The position numbers and the translations under genes are program-made. Source: Pempheris klunzingeri (Eukaryota > Chordata > Actinopteri > Acropomatiformes > Pempheridae). Taken from it: 64,000 nucleotides of DNA. Positions 15,601 through 64,000 of the stretch are shown piece by piece. The notes beneath the pieces are model-generated. The model had not been told where the DNA came from and did not search any database. It saw only the letters and a program-made list of their open reading frames with translations. The stretch spans positions 19,780,162-19,844,161 of the forward strand of contig NC_092031.1 of the NCBI RefSeq assembly GCF_042242105.1, in the 5' to 3' direction. Each line of letters begins with the position of its first letter. Positions within the stretch are counted from its first letter, which is position 1.

Positions 15601-18600
15601 AATGAATGCAGTGGAATGCAACCATCCTGCAATAAATCCTACTTTTCGTTTTTGCTGAACTTGATGAGAATTCACTCCGTACCTCTCCCTGTGTTGTTTA
15701 CCTCCTAAACTTCTGTGTATCAGCACAGTCACACCAGGTGCTTCTGCATGCTTACCTGGGCCTTGTTAAACATTTTGGTCCTCTCTATTAAAAGCACTTC
15801 TGGGTCCTGTAGAAAGCCAGGACGGCTGTGTCTTGATTTCCTGCAGGCAGGGACTCGTTCCATCGGAGTCATCTGTGTTTTGTGTTGGAAGTATATTATG
15901 ATGAAAAATGTACAAGTTCTGAATACCCTTATTCAAACTTAAATCTTCATGCAGATTTACACACGTTTGCCCTGTGAAGCTGTACTATTCAGGGAAAGAG
16001 AAACTAAAGTTCAGACGTAAGGTAGATATTCAGCATAAAAGGAAAAATGGAATTGGGTCTAAACACAAAACAATTAATCCAGCCCTGCTCACAGCATTAA
16101 AATACCACAAGTGAGCAATACAGTAGCAATTGAAGACGTCTCAGTAGTTGATAGTTCAAAACTCTGGCAGATCAAACTGATGGTATCTGTGTATCTACAT
16201 GCCACAAGGTTTTGTGAATTGGATGAACATGTGTGTGAACATTTGTGTTTTTCCAGGCACCGATATTTCAGTGGGTGAGGAGGTTGCGATTAAGTTGGAA
16301 TGTGTGAAGACCAAACACCCCCAGCTCCACATCGAGAGCAAGATATACAAGATGATGCAAGGAGGAGGTGAAGTATTGACTCACATACTGGAATCCACAT
16401 CTTTGGTGGACTTCTCCACCTCAGCCTCAGTGTGCTCAGTTTCCACCTCCTCATTTCCTCTCTCTCTGTCCTTAATATTTATTTTCTCCTCTTTTCATAC
16501 CTAGTCCTCTGAGCCCCTACCGTATCTGCTTTTTTTGCAGTCTGCTTCCTTGTTGATTCTCTCCTCTCCCTGCCACCCACACTCTTCCTCCTCCATGGAA
16601 ATGTAAAGCATACATGGCTTCAACAGCCAGTGATGCACATGAGTCACTAAACAAAGCAGAGGGAGAGAGAAAGAGAGACTGCAGCATTGAATCTGCTCAC
16701 AGCCTTAAATTTACTGTGATCCTGTATCTACACCCGTGGGTGAAGGAACACAGCTGGAGATGATGCAGTCCTTAAAGTATGGGCTCAGAAGCCATCCAAC
16801 CTCCATGGTGGTAAATAGTGGGTGTAACACATCCTTTACTCCATAGTTTTGAAGTTGTAAATATTGAGCAAACTGCTTAGGAATTAAAGGCTCTTTTCTG
16901 CATTAGCCCTCTACTGAAGGCAATCAGAGTGAATGAACAAATGAACATGCTTTTCAGATGAAAGTATGAATATGTGGTGGAATGCCTGCAGCCTGGTCTT
17001 TATCCAGTGAAACACAGGTGGTGGTCCCTACACTGTCTTTGTATTCTTCCTGTTATAATTATGTTAACTCCCATGTTTTTGCAGTGGGCATTCCCACAAT
17101 CAAGTGGTGTGGAGCAGAAGGGGACTATAATGTGATGGTGATGGAGCTACTGGGGCCCAGCCTGGAGGATCTCTTCAACTTTTGCTCTCGCAAGTTCAGC
17201 CTCAAGACGGTCCTGCTGCTCGCCGATCAGATGGTGAGACTGACTCACTTCACTTTACCTTCTGACCACCGTCCGCATGCATCCTACAGTCAGAAAACAG
17301 GAGTCTCTACCTCCAGTCCAGGGCAGCTGAAAATGAGAGCCTCAGTAGTAGACGTCTAAATGGGTCTACCCGAACTGTAGGATCTGAGACCTGTACGGGT
17401 TTGGGTTACGATCAGATTACAAGAGTGAAAGGAAGTGGAAAATGGATACCTTCTTCACTGAGGTGAAGAATAAACTAAAAGGAAATGAATATAGAGAGGT
17501 CAAACCTCTTCTGTCTTACCTGTTATATTCTATTATGGAGTCTCACTGTCATCTACTGGACAAACTGTAGAACAGCACCAGTTGGCAAGTCTGTCTTGTT
17601 GTATCGATGTATCCGACATGGCAGTAGAACAGCAGAATGATGTGTGACTGGGTGAATGAGGATGTGACGTAAAAGCTCTTTGAGTACTCGAAATGACTAG
17701 AAAGGTGCTTTACTAATACAGACCACTTACCATTTCTGAATAAACATCAACCCTTTGTTAATTCAAACATGAAGAACAAAAACAAACATCTTGATTATTT
17801 ATTATTATTTATTTAAGGAGGCCAATGGTTCGATCTGATTATCGCCACAGTCAGTAAACTCATCCATCTGCCATTATCCTCCCCCAAAATGTGCTTTGGC
17901 TGTGATGTAGAGGATGAGCCATCAGACGCAGGTGGGGGTGTCGGCCGATGACCTCATATTAACACGGTGTAGCGAATTTATTTGTCTGTTGTTTTGTTCT
18001 TCTTCCCTATAGATCAGTCGCATTGAGTACATTCACTCCAAGAACTTCATTCACAGAGATGTGAAGCCTGATAACTTCCTGATGGGACTGGGAAAAAAGG
18101 GCAATCTGGTCTACATTATCGATTTTGGCCTGGCTAAAAAATACCGTGATGCTCGCACACACCAGCACATCCCCTACCGTGAGAACAAGAACCTGACTGG
18201 GACGGCACGCTACGCCTCAATCAACACACATCTGGGAATTGGTAAAAAAGAAATCACCCAATAGGCTGTTTGACAAGAACACGTTACTGCTTTTGCTAGA
18301 CAGTTCATTTGAAGTTGTGTTTTTGTAGTTTGTGTTTTTCTGTGTGCAGTAATGACTTTTTCTTCCTGTCCTCTTCATCCTTCTTGTCCGATGTTTCTGT
18401 CCTCAGAGCAGTCGAGGCGCGATGACCTGGAGTCCTTGGGCTACGTCCTCATGTATTTTAATCTGGGATCGCTGCCTTGGCAAGGCCTCAAGGCTGCTAC
18501 CAAGAGGCAGAAATATGAACGGATCAGTGAGAAGAAAATGTCCACCCCTATTGAGGTGCTTTGCAAGGGATACCCCTGTGAGTCTCAACTTATTTTAGGA

Positions 18601-20326
18601 TCTCTTCATTCAAAATTGTCCCAAAATAATGTAATAATTCCATATTGAGCAAGAATAGTCAGGCACTGCGGTCAGCTGAGAAATGTTTTCTCCCTCTTTG
18701 TCACAGCGGAGTTTGCGACCTACCTGAATTTCTGTCGCTCCCTGCGCTTTGATGACAAGCCGGACTACTCATACCTACGGCAGCTCTTCAGGAACCTGTT
18801 CCACAGACAGGGCTTCTCTTATGACTATGTGTTTGACTGGAACATGCTCAAGTTTGTGAGTACTGATAGTGAAGTCTGAACTGGTGTTGTTAGTCAGCTA
18901 CAGTAGATGTTGTAAGAGGTACAGTTGAAAACTGCCTCGATTCAGGGTGACGGCTTGGTGTTGTCCCTTGTTGATTGGTGTTGCTGTTGTACACAGGGAG
19001 CCAACCGTGCAGCAGAGGAAGCAGAAAGAGAGCGCAGAGACCGTGAGGACAGGCTGAGGCACGGCAGGAACCCAGGGGCCAGAGGAATACCTGCCGCGTC
19101 AGGACGACCACGGGGAACCCAGGACGGAGCCCCGCCCACCCCGCTAACACCCACCTCACACACAGGTCAGTTGACTCCAGCCTGCCTCAGCCCCTCTGGA
19201 CTCCACATGTGTTAGCAGGTGGGGCATGATCCTAACGCACAGGCTGTAAAAACCAACAGTGTAGTGAAGTGTTTGATGATTTTAAGATTTCAAGGCAAGA
19301 ATTCAGTGACAGCAGAGGCTCACTGCAGCAGTACAGTAGTGAACATATGTACGGTGGTCTGTGTCATGACGGCAGTATTCAGAAACTGGCACTTCAAGTT
19401 CCCAGGTGTCATAATATATGACGGTGTGTAGATACAGTCAGTATGTAGTTGTTAGTTATGACAACCTAAATGTAGTTTTGGCTGATAAAAAAAACACAGC
19501 GATGTGGAAAACAAGATGTGGAAAATGTTGGTGTTACACATTAACTCAGGCACTTGAGTCAGACATTGGACAGGCCTGTTTATGTGGAATCTGAGGCTAA
19601 TAGGGAAGTATTCATGAATTTTATCGTATCCATTCCCTGAAGAGTACATGGTGCTGACGCTCTTGTTTGTCTCCAGCGAACACATCCCCTCGACAAGTGT
19701 CTGGTATGGAACGTGAACGAAAGGTCAGCATGCGACTCCACCGCGGCGCTCCTGTCAACGTGTCATCCTCAGATCTAACAGGACGGCAGGACACCTCCCG
19801 CATGTCCACCTCACAGGTACAAGACAGCAGGCGCCTCTGCTAGCACGGGCAGACAGAAGAACCTCTGTGCTTACTAGAAGTGATTCCACCTCACCCCAGG
19901 CTAGGCTTGACGTCCACTTCTGAATACATACCAGGAAGCTGTGCTTTAAGCTTCACAGTAACCAGTGGCAGGCAGAATTACATTAAAAGTTCACTAACCT
20001 GTGTCTTCATGGAACATTTATCTTGTTGCTTCATGACATCATTAGGAATGAGTCTCTGATTACAGGAGATGCTCACAGAGGTTTGTGTACATGATTTACC
20101 AAATACTGATGTGTAATGCTTCGCACATGACTCAGGTCCAGAGCAGCTGAAGAAGTCTTGATGTTCTGTTGCAGCACACCAGCGTCATGTTTCTTAGAGA
20201 CAAGCCAAGTGCTGCTTCAGCCAGTTTTCTCCAGCAGGATGTGGGTTCTGACTTGACATATTGGGCCTTCTCTCTCCCTTCCCCCAACCTCAGAATAGCA
20301 TTCCCTACGAGCATCACGCCAAGTAG
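9164..20326 (+). CDS. csnk1d: Casein kinase 1 delta, nine coding exons, 408 aa
   Basis: Ser/Thr kinase of the CK1 family, acting in circadian PER phosphorylation, Wnt signalling and centrosome/trafficking control (family knowledge). Exons: 9164-9239, 16257-16367, 17085-17233, 18013-18241, 18407-18577, 18707-18855, 18997-19165, 19677-19816, 20294-20326; every junction is GT-AG with matching phase. Residues 1-10 are [10 protein letters not shown]; the glycine loop is [12 protein letters not shown], the ATP lysine K38 lies in VAIKLE, the catalytic loop HRDVKPDN has D128, and DFG is 149-151. The CK1-specific SIN motif follows in [11 protein letters not shown] and a KRQKYER basic stretch in the C lobe. 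The tail after ~295 is rich in Ser/Thr/Arg, the autoinhibitory region. The protein ends [10 protein letters not shown], the mammalian CK1-delta short-isoform type ending, which with the neighbouring genes favours delta over epsilon. It is intact. Teleosts may hold a second paralogue, so a/b is not assigned. Confidence 0.95.
9613..9735. repeat. (TG)n microsatellite passing into GTGTGAGA-type units
   Basis: About 45 bases of pure TG are followed by interrupted units with a GAGA insertion. It lies 370 bp into csnk1d intron 1. Confidence 0.95.
10555..10690. repeat. Possible dispersed teleost repeat (ATTA/ATCA-rich)
   Basis: Words such as AACGATTAGTTTCCTTATCA resemble a widespread fish interspersed repeat that begins near AACGATTATTTTCATTATCG. 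The copy is short and diverged. Confidence 0.35.
10799..11010. repeat. Interspersed repeat, copy 1 (in csnk1d intron 1)
   Basis: The order is CCAGCCATTATCTATACTGC, then GCTTATCC, AGGCGGGGTCATCCTGGAC, CGCCAGCCAATCACAGGGCC, and CATGTCTTTGGATTGTGGGA. The same order recurs at 28405-28650 and 51439-51690. It is non-coding, a common teleost repeat type; family not named here. Confidence 0.8.
13115..13415. repeat. Dispersed teleost repeat, copy A
   Basis: It contains AGTACAAAAGTATTAGCATC, ATTATTGGATTATAACTATG, AATGTGTTC, AAAGCTGTCAGATGAATATA and CTCAAGTAAAGTACAAGTAC in the order known for an abundant non-coding fish repeat. A second copy starts about 320 bp later in the same orientation. Confidence 0.65.
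13735..14150. repeat. Dispersed teleost repeat, copy B, with internal (AT)n
   Basis: It shares with copy A the ordered words AATACTGTGGTACAGGTAAA, AGTCCTGCATGCAAACTCTT, GCAGAATGGCCCATTTCAGA and GAAATGTAGTGGAGTAAAAA. A (AT)n run of about 20 bases sits at 13891-13911. Copies A and B overlap in the middle part of the family's consensus but keep different halves. Confidence 0.65.
14391..14790 (-). pseudogene. Dead Tc1/mariner element: terminal repeat plus transposase remnant
   Basis: The left end opens with CAGTACCAGTCAAACGTTTG, the outer end of a common teleost Tc1 family, and continues with its typical subterminal sequence. On the minus strand the C-terminal part of a Tc1 transposase is readable: [10 protein letters not shown] (second catalytic Asp region), then HSSGP[13 protein letters not shown], then, after a frameshift, [15 protein letters not shown]. 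The third acidic catalytic position and the other terminal repeat are missing. It cannot encode an active enzyme. Confidence 0.8.
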
Positions 20327-26385: not shown

Positions 26386-29300
26386 CTAGTCTTGCTGTTC
26401 ATGTGGAAGCGATGGGTTTTCCTCCCCCATCTCCTTCACCATCATCATCTCTTCCCCCTCTTTCACAGCACCGACTTTTCCATTCTCTTTTGTTGTCGGC
26501 TCTTCTTTGCCTTTGTCGTCATCCTCACCTTCCGCCCCGCGGTTCAGCCCTTCCTTCTCCGCTGCAGTCAGAGCCATCTCCATCTTGACCTCCGGGTCTT
26601 CCTGCTTCTTGCTGATACAGAAGAAGTTACCAAGGGCGAGGACGAAGGCCGCCAGCGTGACCTCACAGCCCGCCAACAGGAAGACATACATGTACCGATG
26701 GGTGTAATCCAAGAGGCGACCTGGGGGGGGTTGCAAGAACATTGTAGCATGATAGTTAGTGAAATACCTTCACTGTCCCAGAACTACAGGGACAATAACA
26801 CTGTGGCAAATCAGCTTTTCTTTGACGGACGTCAGTGAATAAAGGTTTCTTTGATGGACTTTTGTGTCCAAAACTACTGTGAGCTTCACTTCATGACTGT
26901 TTTTACGTCTGTCTGCTAAACCCAGTGGCTGTATACCAACAAGTTCACCATTCATAACAGATGCTTACAACGTGGCACGCCTGATAATGACGAGCCCTGT
27001 TATGAATGACGCAGTCTCAGATGAACCGTGCTCTGACCTGCTCCAGGAGGTCCCACCAGGACAGCAATGGCTTCCATGAGCAGCACCAAGCCAATGGCAC
27101 TGGAGAACTTCTCCGTCCCTACGATAGCCATGAGGACCTCGAACTGCAGCGCTCCCACCATGCCATACGACACTCCAAAGAAGATACAGAAGATCACCAG
27201 ACCTGTGTAGTCAGACGCCTGCATGGAGAGAACATGACAGCAGGTGATGGAACAGGAGAGACATACAGTAACCTGGTCTATACAGGAACCTGGTCTGTAC
27301 AGTAACCTGGTCTATACAGTTACAGGTCTATACAGTAACCTGGTGTATACAGTAACCTGGTCTGTACAGGAACCTGGTCTGTACAGTAACCTGGTCTATG
27401 CAGGAACCTGGTCTATACAGTAACCTGGTCTGTACAGTAACCTGGTCTATGCAGGAACCTGGTCTATACAGATCCACACAAGACAACTTTAAAGTCTTCA
27501 CTTTAAAAGTGAATGAACTGACCAACATCTGCATAACGACAGTCATTTACTTTCCTCCCTGCTCAACTGTTACCTGTGATCCGACGATGTCAGTGCAGCC
27601 ATTGAAGATTATAGCAAAGCTTAACAGGTAGACGCTTCTGGGTCGTACCCACTTCATGCCTGCTATGAGTCCCGACACAGGCCGAGCAAACATATCAACA
27701 AATCCTAAGACGGTGAGCAGCAGTGCCGACTTAGTGTCCTCATAGCCGAGGCCTTTAGCGTAGTTCACCACAAACACAGGGGGCACAAACAAGCCCAGCA
27801 CCATAATGGAGGCAGCGACGGTATAGATAACAAATCCTCTGTCCTTGAACACTTGGAAATCCAACAGTTTCTTCTTTGGCGTGGGCTTCTTCTCCTCCTC
27901 TGCAGCTGTGGGAGTGCTCTCCTCCAGCTGTGCGGGCTTCTTAGGGGGCAACAAGGGCCTCATGAGGGCAGCACAGACACAGCAGTTGAGCAGCATCCCT
28001 CCCAGTATGAGGAACCCCCCCCGCCAGCCATACTGGTACTGGAGAATCTGTCCCAGTGGGGAGAGGCAGCACAGCGCCACCGGGCTGCCCGCTGCCGCCA
28101 AACCGTTGGCCAGAGGACGCTTCTCACTGAAGTAGCGATTCAACATTATCAGAGATGGCTGGAAGTTTAATGCCAGACCTAGACCTGAGGAGAGACGGGG
28201 GGGGGGGGGGGGGGTTACAAAGACGTGTAAAGGTTATGTTGTATATGTAACTTGAGCAGAAGGCTCTGCAGTGTTAGTCTTCTGTTGTTGTCTCCTTTGC
28301 ATTTCTCTTTTCTTTATTCTTTATCATTTGGGCTTCATGTGATTCCATCACTGTTGGTGAGCAGCACCTCAACCAGGGTTAAACATGCATGTCCACACAC
28401 TGAGACATCCATCCACTGTCTATACTGCTTATCCTTAAGGGTCGCAGGGGGGGCTGCCAGTCCCAGCTGACACTGGGTGAGAGGCGGGGTCACCCTGGAC
28501 TGATCGCTTGTCAATCACAGGGCCGACACACACAGACAACCACTCACATCTACATGTACTTTAGAGTCACCAGTTAACCTGCATGTCTTTGGACTGTTGG
28601 AGGACTCGTAACATGGGGGGAACATGCAAACTCTACACAGAAAGGTTCAAGGTGAAGAAAAGGGGACTACACGGAGAAGGTTGTTGCTACAGTGCAGTCC
28701 ATTTTCCACTGAAAGTCCCATCAGCAGTGGGGTCAGGAATGTAGTTTATCCTGAGAGCGGTGTTGGAGAATAAATCAAAACTTCTATGTCCACTGACAGC
28801 GTGGATATGGAAAGACCCTTACATCACTGTGTGTTGACCTGGTCGTAAGCGAGTGAAGCTCAGAGGGCTCAGCTTCGTCTGCTGCATGAATGTGCTCAAT
28901 GAATTCACACAGAAATCTGGCCATTAGTTTGAATATTTCTTTGGGTGACTTTGTAGAGGAAAGGTCAGGGCACCACCAAAAACACCCAGGTTCCTCCCCC
29001 ACTCTGAAGAGCAAGAATATCCACCGTGATCCAGAATTCACATTTAAGGGCACCGTTAGAGAGTAGTTGTTAAGATAAGCTGCAGTGGACCAAAGCCTTT
29101 GCTGAGTGTGTTTTTGCTGTGTGGCATCTATGCTGTGGCTCTACCTGTAATTACTCCAGTGCACAGGTAGATGTGTATGATGCTGGTGGCAAAGGATGCC
29201 AGAATCATTCCCAGCGAGGCAAAGATCCCTCCAACCATCATCACCGGTCGACAGCCAAACCTGTTCACCAACACACTGCACAGAGGGCCTAAGAAACACA

Positions 29301-29622
29301 GTGAGTCAGTGAGAACACAGTACACACGTGTAGGGTGCTGTTTAGCATTTTGAAGCTAACAATGAATGCTTATGGGATGTGTGCGTCACCCTCGTCTACC
29401 TGTGCCGTACAGCATGGCGAGCAGAATCGATGAGATCCAAGCGGTGTCACTGTAGCCGACGTCAAACTCTCGGATCAGCTCCTTGAAGAAGACGCTGACG
29501 GCCTTGGGGAAAGCATAGGAGAAGCCAGTGATGACGAAGCCGCCGGCCAACACGGCCCAACCCCAGCCGCCATCTGGGGCCTTCACCCCCGGGGGCGCGT
29601 CGTCCACCACTGCTCCTCCCAT
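26386..29622 (-). CDS. slc16a3: Monocarboxylate transporter 4 (lactate/H+ symporter), five coding exons, 497 aa
   Basis: Plasma-membrane proton-coupled lactate exporter of glycolytic cells; in mammals it needs basigin to reach the surface (family knowledge). Minus-strand exons in order: 29622-29400, 29288-29145, 28184-27574, 27218-27038, 26720-26386; all junctions GT-AG with matching phase. It begins MGGAVVD, followed by the MCT signature DGGWGW in TM1. K40 in [10 protein letters not shown] corresponds to the MCT1 substrate lysine (K38). D286 and R290 in VDMFARP match the TM8 Asp/Arg pair needed for transport. [14 protein letters not shown] is the TM4-5 family block; a Lys/Pro/Glu-rich loop (about 200-230) separates the two six-helix halves. 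The C-tail after ~420 is unusually acidic and ends EQQD; human MCT4 has 465 aa. The start follows a good ATCATGG context. [21 protein letters not shown] and synteny fix it as MCT4. It is intact. Confidence 0.95.
27262..27471. repeat. 17-bp minisatellite in slc16a3 intron 3
   Basis: About 12 units of the form AACCTGGTCTATACAGT, alternating with GTCTGTACAG and GTCTATGCAGG variants. It lies just beyond exon 4, in the intron between exons 3 and 4. Confidence 0.9.
28197..28214. repeat. G18 homopolymer acting as poly-C tract of a splice acceptor
   Basis: On the minus strand this is C18 and sits 12 bases before the slc16a3 exon 3 acceptor at 28185, in the position of the polypyrimidine tract. The exon 5 acceptor likewise follows a C8 run (26723-26730). 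Confidence 0.9.
28405..28650. repeat. Interspersed repeat, copy 2 (slc16a3 intron 2)
   Basis: It shares with the 10799 copy the ordered words CCATCCACTGTCTATACTGC, GAGAGGCGGGGTCACCCTGG, AATCACAGGGCCGACACACA, CATGTCTTTGGACTGTTGGA and GAACATGCAAACTC. Confidence 0.8.
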
Positions 29623-30016
29623 GATGCTCTCTGACTGCTGTGCTGAGGTCAGTGGCTGTGAAGTGGTGAAAAACACAGACTGATCCATGAGAATGTTCCT
29701 GCTGATTGTGTGAGTCATCTTATTCCAGCACTTCATGCTCCCTGTAGTTCACAGCAGTATGTTCATAGTAACTTCAGAACAAACCTTCTGGGTGTTAATA
29801 CATAGTCAGTGCACTAGGTGCTGGTACCCTGCTGCTGCTGGATGCTGTTAACGAGGGAACTTTATTCCATCGGTGTGTGAGGCTCTGTATCCACACGCCG
29901 CTGGGTGTTATCCCACTGGGCCTGTTGGTGTCCAGGCTGCAGCCTGCTTTTATTTACAGTGCGAGCTCCTTTACTTTAAGTGTGTGTCCCCTGTAGAGTG
30001 TGTCTGTTATGTTGGA
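29623..30016 (-). other. slc16a3: slc16a3 5' UTR part and intron start
   Basis: The bases just upstream of the ATG are transcribed leader. Minus-strand AG sites at roughly 29640-29665 could be the acceptor of the first coding exon, but none can be chosen. The frame stays open upstream to another ATG at 29736, but that extension has no counterpart in MCT4 proteins. Confidence 0.45.
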
Positions 30017-36409: not shown

Positions 36410-61628
<25,219 letters not shown>

Positions 61629-63370: not shown

Positions 63371-63760
63371 GTACTGTCCTGTGTACAAGTACTGTGTCTT
63401 GTGTACAAGTACTGTGTCCTGTGAGTACTGTGTACAAGTACTGTGTCCTGTGTACAAGTACTGTGTCCTGTGTACAAGTACTGTGTACAAGTACTGTGTC
63501 CTGTGAGTACTGTGTCCTGTGTACGAGTACTGTGTCCTGTGAGTACTGTGTACAAGTACTGTGTCCTGTGTACAAGTACTGTGTACAAGTACTGTGTCCT
63601 GTGAGTACTGTGTCCTGTGTACAAGTACTGTGTACAAGTACTGTGTCCTGTGAGTACTGTGTCCTGTGTACAAGTACTGTGTCCTGTGAGTACTGTGTCC
63701 TGTGTACAAGTACTGTGTTGTGTACAAGTACCGTGTTGTGTACAAGTACCGTGTGCAAGT
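63371..63760. repeat. Minisatellite of TGTACAAGTACTGTGTCCTG-type units
   Basis: Some 20 units, with a full 20-bp form and a shorter form in which GTGTACAA is reduced to GAG. The two forms alternate in blocks, giving a higher-order pattern. Long minus-strand frames (up to 179 codons) through it are repeat artefacts. It ends about 190 bases before the fasn CCAAT box. Confidence 0.95.
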
Positions 63761-63774
63761 GTTCCCACAGCCCA

Positions 63775-64000
63775 CCGGGCTCTCATCGGTACCCCGGCCG
63801 TGTGCTGCCGCCGGGCCGGGCGGGGGGGCGGAGCAGCGCTCTGAACTGCAGTAACCTCGTCTCAACATCGGGTTTTTTTCGCTCCGTGACTGCGGGGCGT
63901 TCAACGAATGACTCCATCAGTGGCTGGATCCGAGAGCCCTGCCTCCTTTCTCATTGGACTGCGCGGCCAAGCCAAGCTGTCAGCCCATGTGGCGTGGCCA
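63775..64000 (+). promoter_or_regulatory. fasn: Fatty acid synthase (fasn) proximal promoter
   Basis: The last 50 bases reproduce the core of the mammalian FASN promoter almost letter for letter. An inverted CCAAT box (ATTGG, 63953-63957; NF-Y) is followed 33 bases later by the block GTCAGCCCATGTGGCGTGG with the E-box CATGTG (63986-63991; USF), overlapped by tandem sterol-response half-sites for SREBP-1. In rat and human these lie at about -100 and -65 with the same spacing, so transcription should start about 60 bases beyond the window, on the + strand. GC boxes (GGGCGGGGG at 63818-63826, Sp1 type) lie further up. Insulin/SREBP control of fasn is established in mammals; its operation here is inferred. 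Confidence 0.85.

Follow-up and report, generated by a model that had tools for sequence, protein, structure and literature searches.

An inverted CCAAT box and an E-box/SRE shared with mammalian FASN lie directly upstream of fasn in the teleost Pempheris klunzingeri

Introduction

Two elements of the mammalian Fasn promoter are established, namely the E-box named -65 (PMC5790437) and a CCAAT element (PMC12673625). According to the passages available from these papers, activation of the FASN promoter by feeding/insulin requires that USF1 bind the -65 E-box (PMC5790437), and NF-Y binds the Fasn CCAAT element, where an “ICE” probe spanning -110 to -86 places ATTGG at -98 (PMC12673625). For fads2, the conservation of CCAAT boxes between fish and mammals has been aligned earlier, and the Sp1 site was found to be less conserved (PMC5832746, in the sections available).

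The window analysed here is a stretch of 64,000 nucleotides (G000:C20:19780162-19844161) from the 646-Mb genome of P. klunzingeri, which comprises 439 contigs; positions beyond 64,000 are given in extended coordinates. An earlier note had placed a fasn promoter core at the very edge of the window, and this location proved correct, as both a CCAAT box and an E-box/SRE reside in the last 50 bases. In the following we describe this block and the gene downstream, compare the block with human and mouse text and outline why it very probably represents the core of this teleost's fasn proximal promoter, acting through NF-Y and a bHLH factor.

Architecture of the promoter core

The part of the fasn proximal promoter that falls within the window extends over 63801-64000 (+ strand), with a GC content of 0.67 and then 0.60 per 100 bases. 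A motif scan together with mouse Fasn text identified an inverted CCAAT box (ATTGG on the + strand) at 63953-63957, likely an NF-Y site and the sole CCAAT on either strand within 63700-64260. Further downstream, the E-box/SRE CATGTGGCGTGG occupies 63986-63997 (+), with its E-box CATGTG at 63986-63991, and forms part of the 19-mer CAGCCCATGTGGCGTGGCC at 63981-63999 (+). Read as half sites, SREBP-like motifs presumably overlap the E-box in this 19-mer. The spacer CCAAGCCAAGCTGT (63967-63980, +), which separates the place of the GC box from the 19-mer, may be conserved and identical in mammals, too, although its letters turned up no FASN promoter in the paper texts searched.

Counted from start to start, ATTGG (63953) and CATGTG (63986) are 33 bp apart, in agreement with the 33-34 bp claimed previously. 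In mammals, ATTGG at -98 (PMC12673625) and the E-box at -65 imply the same spacing of 33 bp, with the reservation that the base and the species meant by “-65” are unstated in the available passages of PMC5790437. Judged by its letters, the segment 63981-63999 is the counterpart of the mammalian -65 E-box/SRE.

The fasn gene downstream

Vertebrate FASN genes feature a TATA-like box about 30 bp before the transcription start, a non-coding exon 1 and an ATG in exon 2. The sequence of the fish locus contains candidate signals for such a layout: past the window end a TTTAAA box (64017-64022, +) is followed by a first-exon donor CAG/GTGAGT (64176/64177, +) and by an acceptor, about 3.5 kb after the first exon, that precedes the ATG ATGGATGAG at 67743 (+). 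No fasn coding sequence was seen in the first exon. This start codon, located in the first coding exon, is 3,743 bp away from the window end, and exons matching the Pfam ketoacyl synthase (KS) domain begin in this region.

When the joined KS peptide was compared with the database, each of the six top matches bore the name fatty acid synthase (1.5e-119 to 5.7e-111, among the best 60 of 110 matches), and the best polyketide synthase match within the same 60 of 110 reaches 3.9e-78. A Pfam scan of seven downstream frames recovered KS, acyltransferase, PKS_DH_N, KR, PP-binding and thioesterase domains in this order in six of them, while the frame picked for the enoyl reductase yielded no Pfam domain. 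The prediction that the next gene is fasn is borne out by the ATG at 3,743 bp, the KS exons, the fatty acid synthase matches and the FASN domains in 6/7 frames. Extending the sequence downstream, the check proposed in the earlier note, revealed both the first exon and the ketoacyl synthase exons, and the latter begin about 3.74 kb on, well inside the 10 kb or so within which their absence was to count against the claim.

The promoter is flanked by a tandem array on either side. Upstream, a minisatellite with the unit TGTCCTGTGTACAAGTACTG and higher-order periods of 36, 49, 98 and 147 covers 63375-63754 and ends approximately 200 bp upstream of the CCAAT box. Downstream, the first intron of fasn (L008:576-1194) harbours a 49-base minisatellite of 12.8 copies with 95% matches.

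Comparison with human and mouse sequences

The mammalian side of the comparison consists of letters printed in papers available in part, amounting to nine human and mouse pieces. Each piece was scored against 63750-64260 (+) and, in a wider run, against 63001-64600 on both strands, and 200 dinucleotide shuffles were scored each time.

The human FASN EMSA probe P2 (PMC13314538, partial text) matches the fish sequence at 20/24 positions and was equalled by 0/200 shuffles in both runs. Its first 19 letters are CAGCCCATGTGGCGTGGCC (19/19), and it differs from the fish right after this 19-mer; common to both species are these letters and their place directly upstream of fasn. The assignment of P2 to the -65 E-box is our reading, and the available text of PMC13314538 calls P2 an HRE-containing probe. 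At the CCAAT end, a 17-letter mouse Fasn primer (PMC12611978) agrees at 15/17 positions (0/200 shuffles as good in both runs) and the ICE probe (PMC12673625) at 17/24 (2/200 in both runs), two pieces that overlap and hence are not independent. Within the printed letters of these two papers, the inverted CCAAT element CTCATTGG is identical in fish and mouse, whereas the bases 5' of it are mostly unlike (17/24 over the ICE probe), and one of the two changes in the 17-mer disrupts the adjacent GGGCGG. The base before CCAAT also differs, being T in the fish (GTCCAAT) and G in the mouse. A T at this position possibly is weaker for NF-Y, given the binding preference of this factor.

The six pieces from outside the core did no better than shuffles in either run. 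This holds for the human forward primer, the HRE probe P1, the reverse primer, P2-F2 and P1-R1, as well as for the merged first-exon primers (PMC4169611 and PMC6120245, as far as printed there), with 83-188 of 200 shuffles as good over 63750-64260 (+) and 25-188 of 200 over 63001-64600 on both strands. The match of these mouse first-exon primers at 14/24 positions was rejected, since it was equalled by 100/200 shuffles and by 171/200 in the wider run. Because the three core pieces beat their shuffles and the six outside pieces do not, conservation looks limited to the CCAAT-to-E-box core, as far as short printed pieces show.

The claimed span of 48 bases contains 34 comparable positions, the 14 spacer bases at 63967-63980 being excluded, and 31 of these agree (12/14 with mouse, 19/20 with human). 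The description “near letter-perfect” is therefore appropriate for 31/34 compared positions but too broad for all 48 bases, and conservation “from mammals to fish” applies to P. klunzingeri versus human and mouse text and no wider. A 21-mer of the core had no match in viral_contigs or in genome_contigs.

Divergence from the mammalian promoter set

At the place of the mouse GC box (63958-63966, +) the fish reads ACTGCGCGG and the mouse CCTGGGCGG, according to the primer printed in the available part of PMC12611978. The GGGCGG core that adjoins the mouse CCAAT box thus reads GCGCGG in the fish. A motif scan located the GGGCGG boxes nearest to the fish CCAAT box at 63818-63823 and 63826-63831 (+), and these two GC boxes are candidate substitute Sp1 sites. 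Rodents possess a second SRE near -150 with the consensus ATCACCCCAC; the best match to it in 63701-64000 was 7/10, which leaves this feature of the mammalian set without a counterpart there. ChoRE and LXRE patterns were absent from 60001-64260. As the tandem array fills 63375-63754, distal mammalian elements have no obvious counterpart in that interval.

The notion that the fish employs the “same DNA grammar” as mammals is accordingly valid for the CCAAT box, the E-box/SRE and their spacing, yet it fails for the GC box, which is broken (GGGCGG to GCGCGG). One might speculate that in this fish the lipogenic switch has been pared down to a rigid NF-Y plus USF/SREBP unit with a fixed distance of 33 bp and without the mammalian GC box in between, such that SREBP-1 would act via NF-Y alone. 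We consider this doubtful; if it were true, fish that carry the GC box and fish that lack it should differ in their SREBP isoform preferences.

Gene order upstream of fasn

The earlier note had also proposed that fasn completes a csnk1d-slc16a3-ccdc57-fasn synteny. Three joined exon pieces at 16181-18876 (+), one of which contains a Pkinase domain, match casein kinase I delta (1e-105, 353.6 bits) slightly better than epsilon (2e-103, 346.2 bits), and the kinase gene is likely csnk1d. On the minus strand, exons of a monocarboxylate transporter occupy 27003-29748, the outer frames being assigned by eye. The frame 27550-28233 yields MFS_1 (2e-22), and the database matches of the transporter include MCT2 (1.4e-57) and MCT1 (1.8e-52) and no MCT4 chain; such an MCT1/2-type transporter on this strand is consistent with slc16a3.

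Coiled-coil-like open frames on the + strand, likewise assigned by eye, extend from 36342 to 61627, near which the last frame ends. None of ten frames gave a Pfam match over the cut-off, and the name ccdc57 is our assumption from the human gene order, which along with the coiled-coil-like frames makes the assignment plausible. The proposed synteny holds for fasn, with csnk1d likely and the transporter fitting slc16a3, but ccdc57 was not identified (0/10 frames with Pfam matches). Inside the putative ccdc57, a 20-base tandem array of 20 copies occupies 59842-60242, and remnants resembling non-LTR retrotransposons by eye are found at 37434-37784, 38566-38901 and 59023-59304, all on the minus strand.

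Proposed mechanism and alternative explanations

By analogy with mammalian work, NF-Y would occupy the inverted CCAAT box at 63953-63957, and a bHLH factor, either USF after feeding/insulin or SREBP-1, would bind CATGTGGCGTGG 33 bp downstream. A distance of 33 bp corresponds to about three helical turns and may bring both factors to one side of the helix. Together, NF-Y and the bHLH factor might, after feeding, recruit the transcription machinery to the TTTAAA box located another 31 bp downstream. Points against this explanation are the T before CCAAT, the loss of the mouse GC box, the restriction of the comparison to a single fish, and the statement that fish and mammals do not always share conserved core promoter elements (PMC6071087, partial text).

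One alternative is that the block, lying in a GC-rich promoter, resembles FASN by chance and is uninformative about fasn, considering that the GC content is 0.60-0.67 over the last 200 bases and that E-boxes are common. However, if three or fewer mismatches are allowed, the 19-mer CAGCCCATGTGGCGTGGCC matches the window once and none of 100 dinucleotide shuffles, and the whole 646-Mb genome contains exactly one exact copy (reversed-pattern control, 0). When both strands of the window and of the next 30 kb are scanned, the runner-up score for the 19-mer is 14/19 (two places), and the pattern TCATTGG-N(20-40)-CATGTGGCGTGG likewise occurs once in the window and in 0 of 100 shuffles. Moreover, fasn exons follow immediately downstream of the block. 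In light of the shuffles, the single genomic copy and the KS match to fatty acid synthases, chance similarity was refuted and retains a negligible probability. Equally negligible is the chance that the gene downstream of the block is a duplicated fasn-like or polyketide synthase gene and not the fasn ortholog. The genome does contain more ketoacyl synthase loci, with two KS match groups on opposite strands of contig C21 and one group on contig C16. Yet the KS parts are 36-49% (C21) and 25% (C16) identical to the fasn KS, the block is absent from 40 kb around the C21 loci, where the best score is 14/19, and the joined KS peptide described above prefers fatty acid synthases (1.5e-119 to 5.7e-111 for the six best matches) to polyketide synthases (3.9e-78), as judged from the best 60 of 110 matches. 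A duplicated fasn on C21 was rejected on grounds of the KS identity and the missing block. The C21 groups, at G000:C21:16633208-16634747 (+) and 16648640-16647905 (-), are convergent and possibly represent animal FAS-like polyketide synthases.

A further alternative concerns the factor rather than the gene: the block might be kept mainly for a non-SREBP/USF factor that uses the same E-box, such as HIF-1 or a circadian bHLH protein. The same human 24-mer indeed served as EMSA probe P2 for HIF-1alpha binding (PMC13314538), and hence other factors may share the site. Nevertheless, the available passages of that paper do not state whether P1 or P2 shifted, the human HRE probe P1 lacks an above-chance match in 63001-64600, and the accessible part of PMC5790437 attributes the site to USF1. 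This alternative appears improbable.

Comparison with known systems

The P. klunzingeri locus, whose downstream gene is proven by genomic sequence, contributes a teleost case to the evidence that the core switch of de novo fat synthesis has kept its spacing and most of the compared letters since the split between fish and mammals, whereas pieces printed from the flanks have ceased to match. With a preserved core, unmatched flanks and a broken GC box, the locus offers a sharp test of which promoter part is indispensable. For fish nutrition, the bases to assay are now marked.

The earlier note overstated the surprise of aligning promoters between fish and mammals, since the elements are established and the conservation of fads2 CCAAT boxes was aligned previously (PMC5832746, sections available). 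The element, the factors and the gene all are known, and the block is a real but expected case that leaves the known picture unchanged. A printed alignment of fish fasn promoters was not found among the matches listed from the literature searched, which covers few subscription journals; this absence is weak. A study by Carmona-Antonanzas from 2014 refers in its title to regulation that is conserved between fish and mammals.

Among described systems, SREBP1 sites have also been predicted in the FAS promoter of another teleost, the yellow catfish (PMC6071087; GenBank MH253820); in the accessible material of that paper the word E-box is missing from the main text and no promoter sequence is printed. 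The fads2 promoters of teleosts and mammals differ from the P. klunzingeri fasn promoter in that they belong to another gene and feature two CCAAT boxes and another SRE sequence, but like it they combine conserved CCAAT sites beside an SRE with a less strictly kept Sp1 site (PMC5832746, in part).
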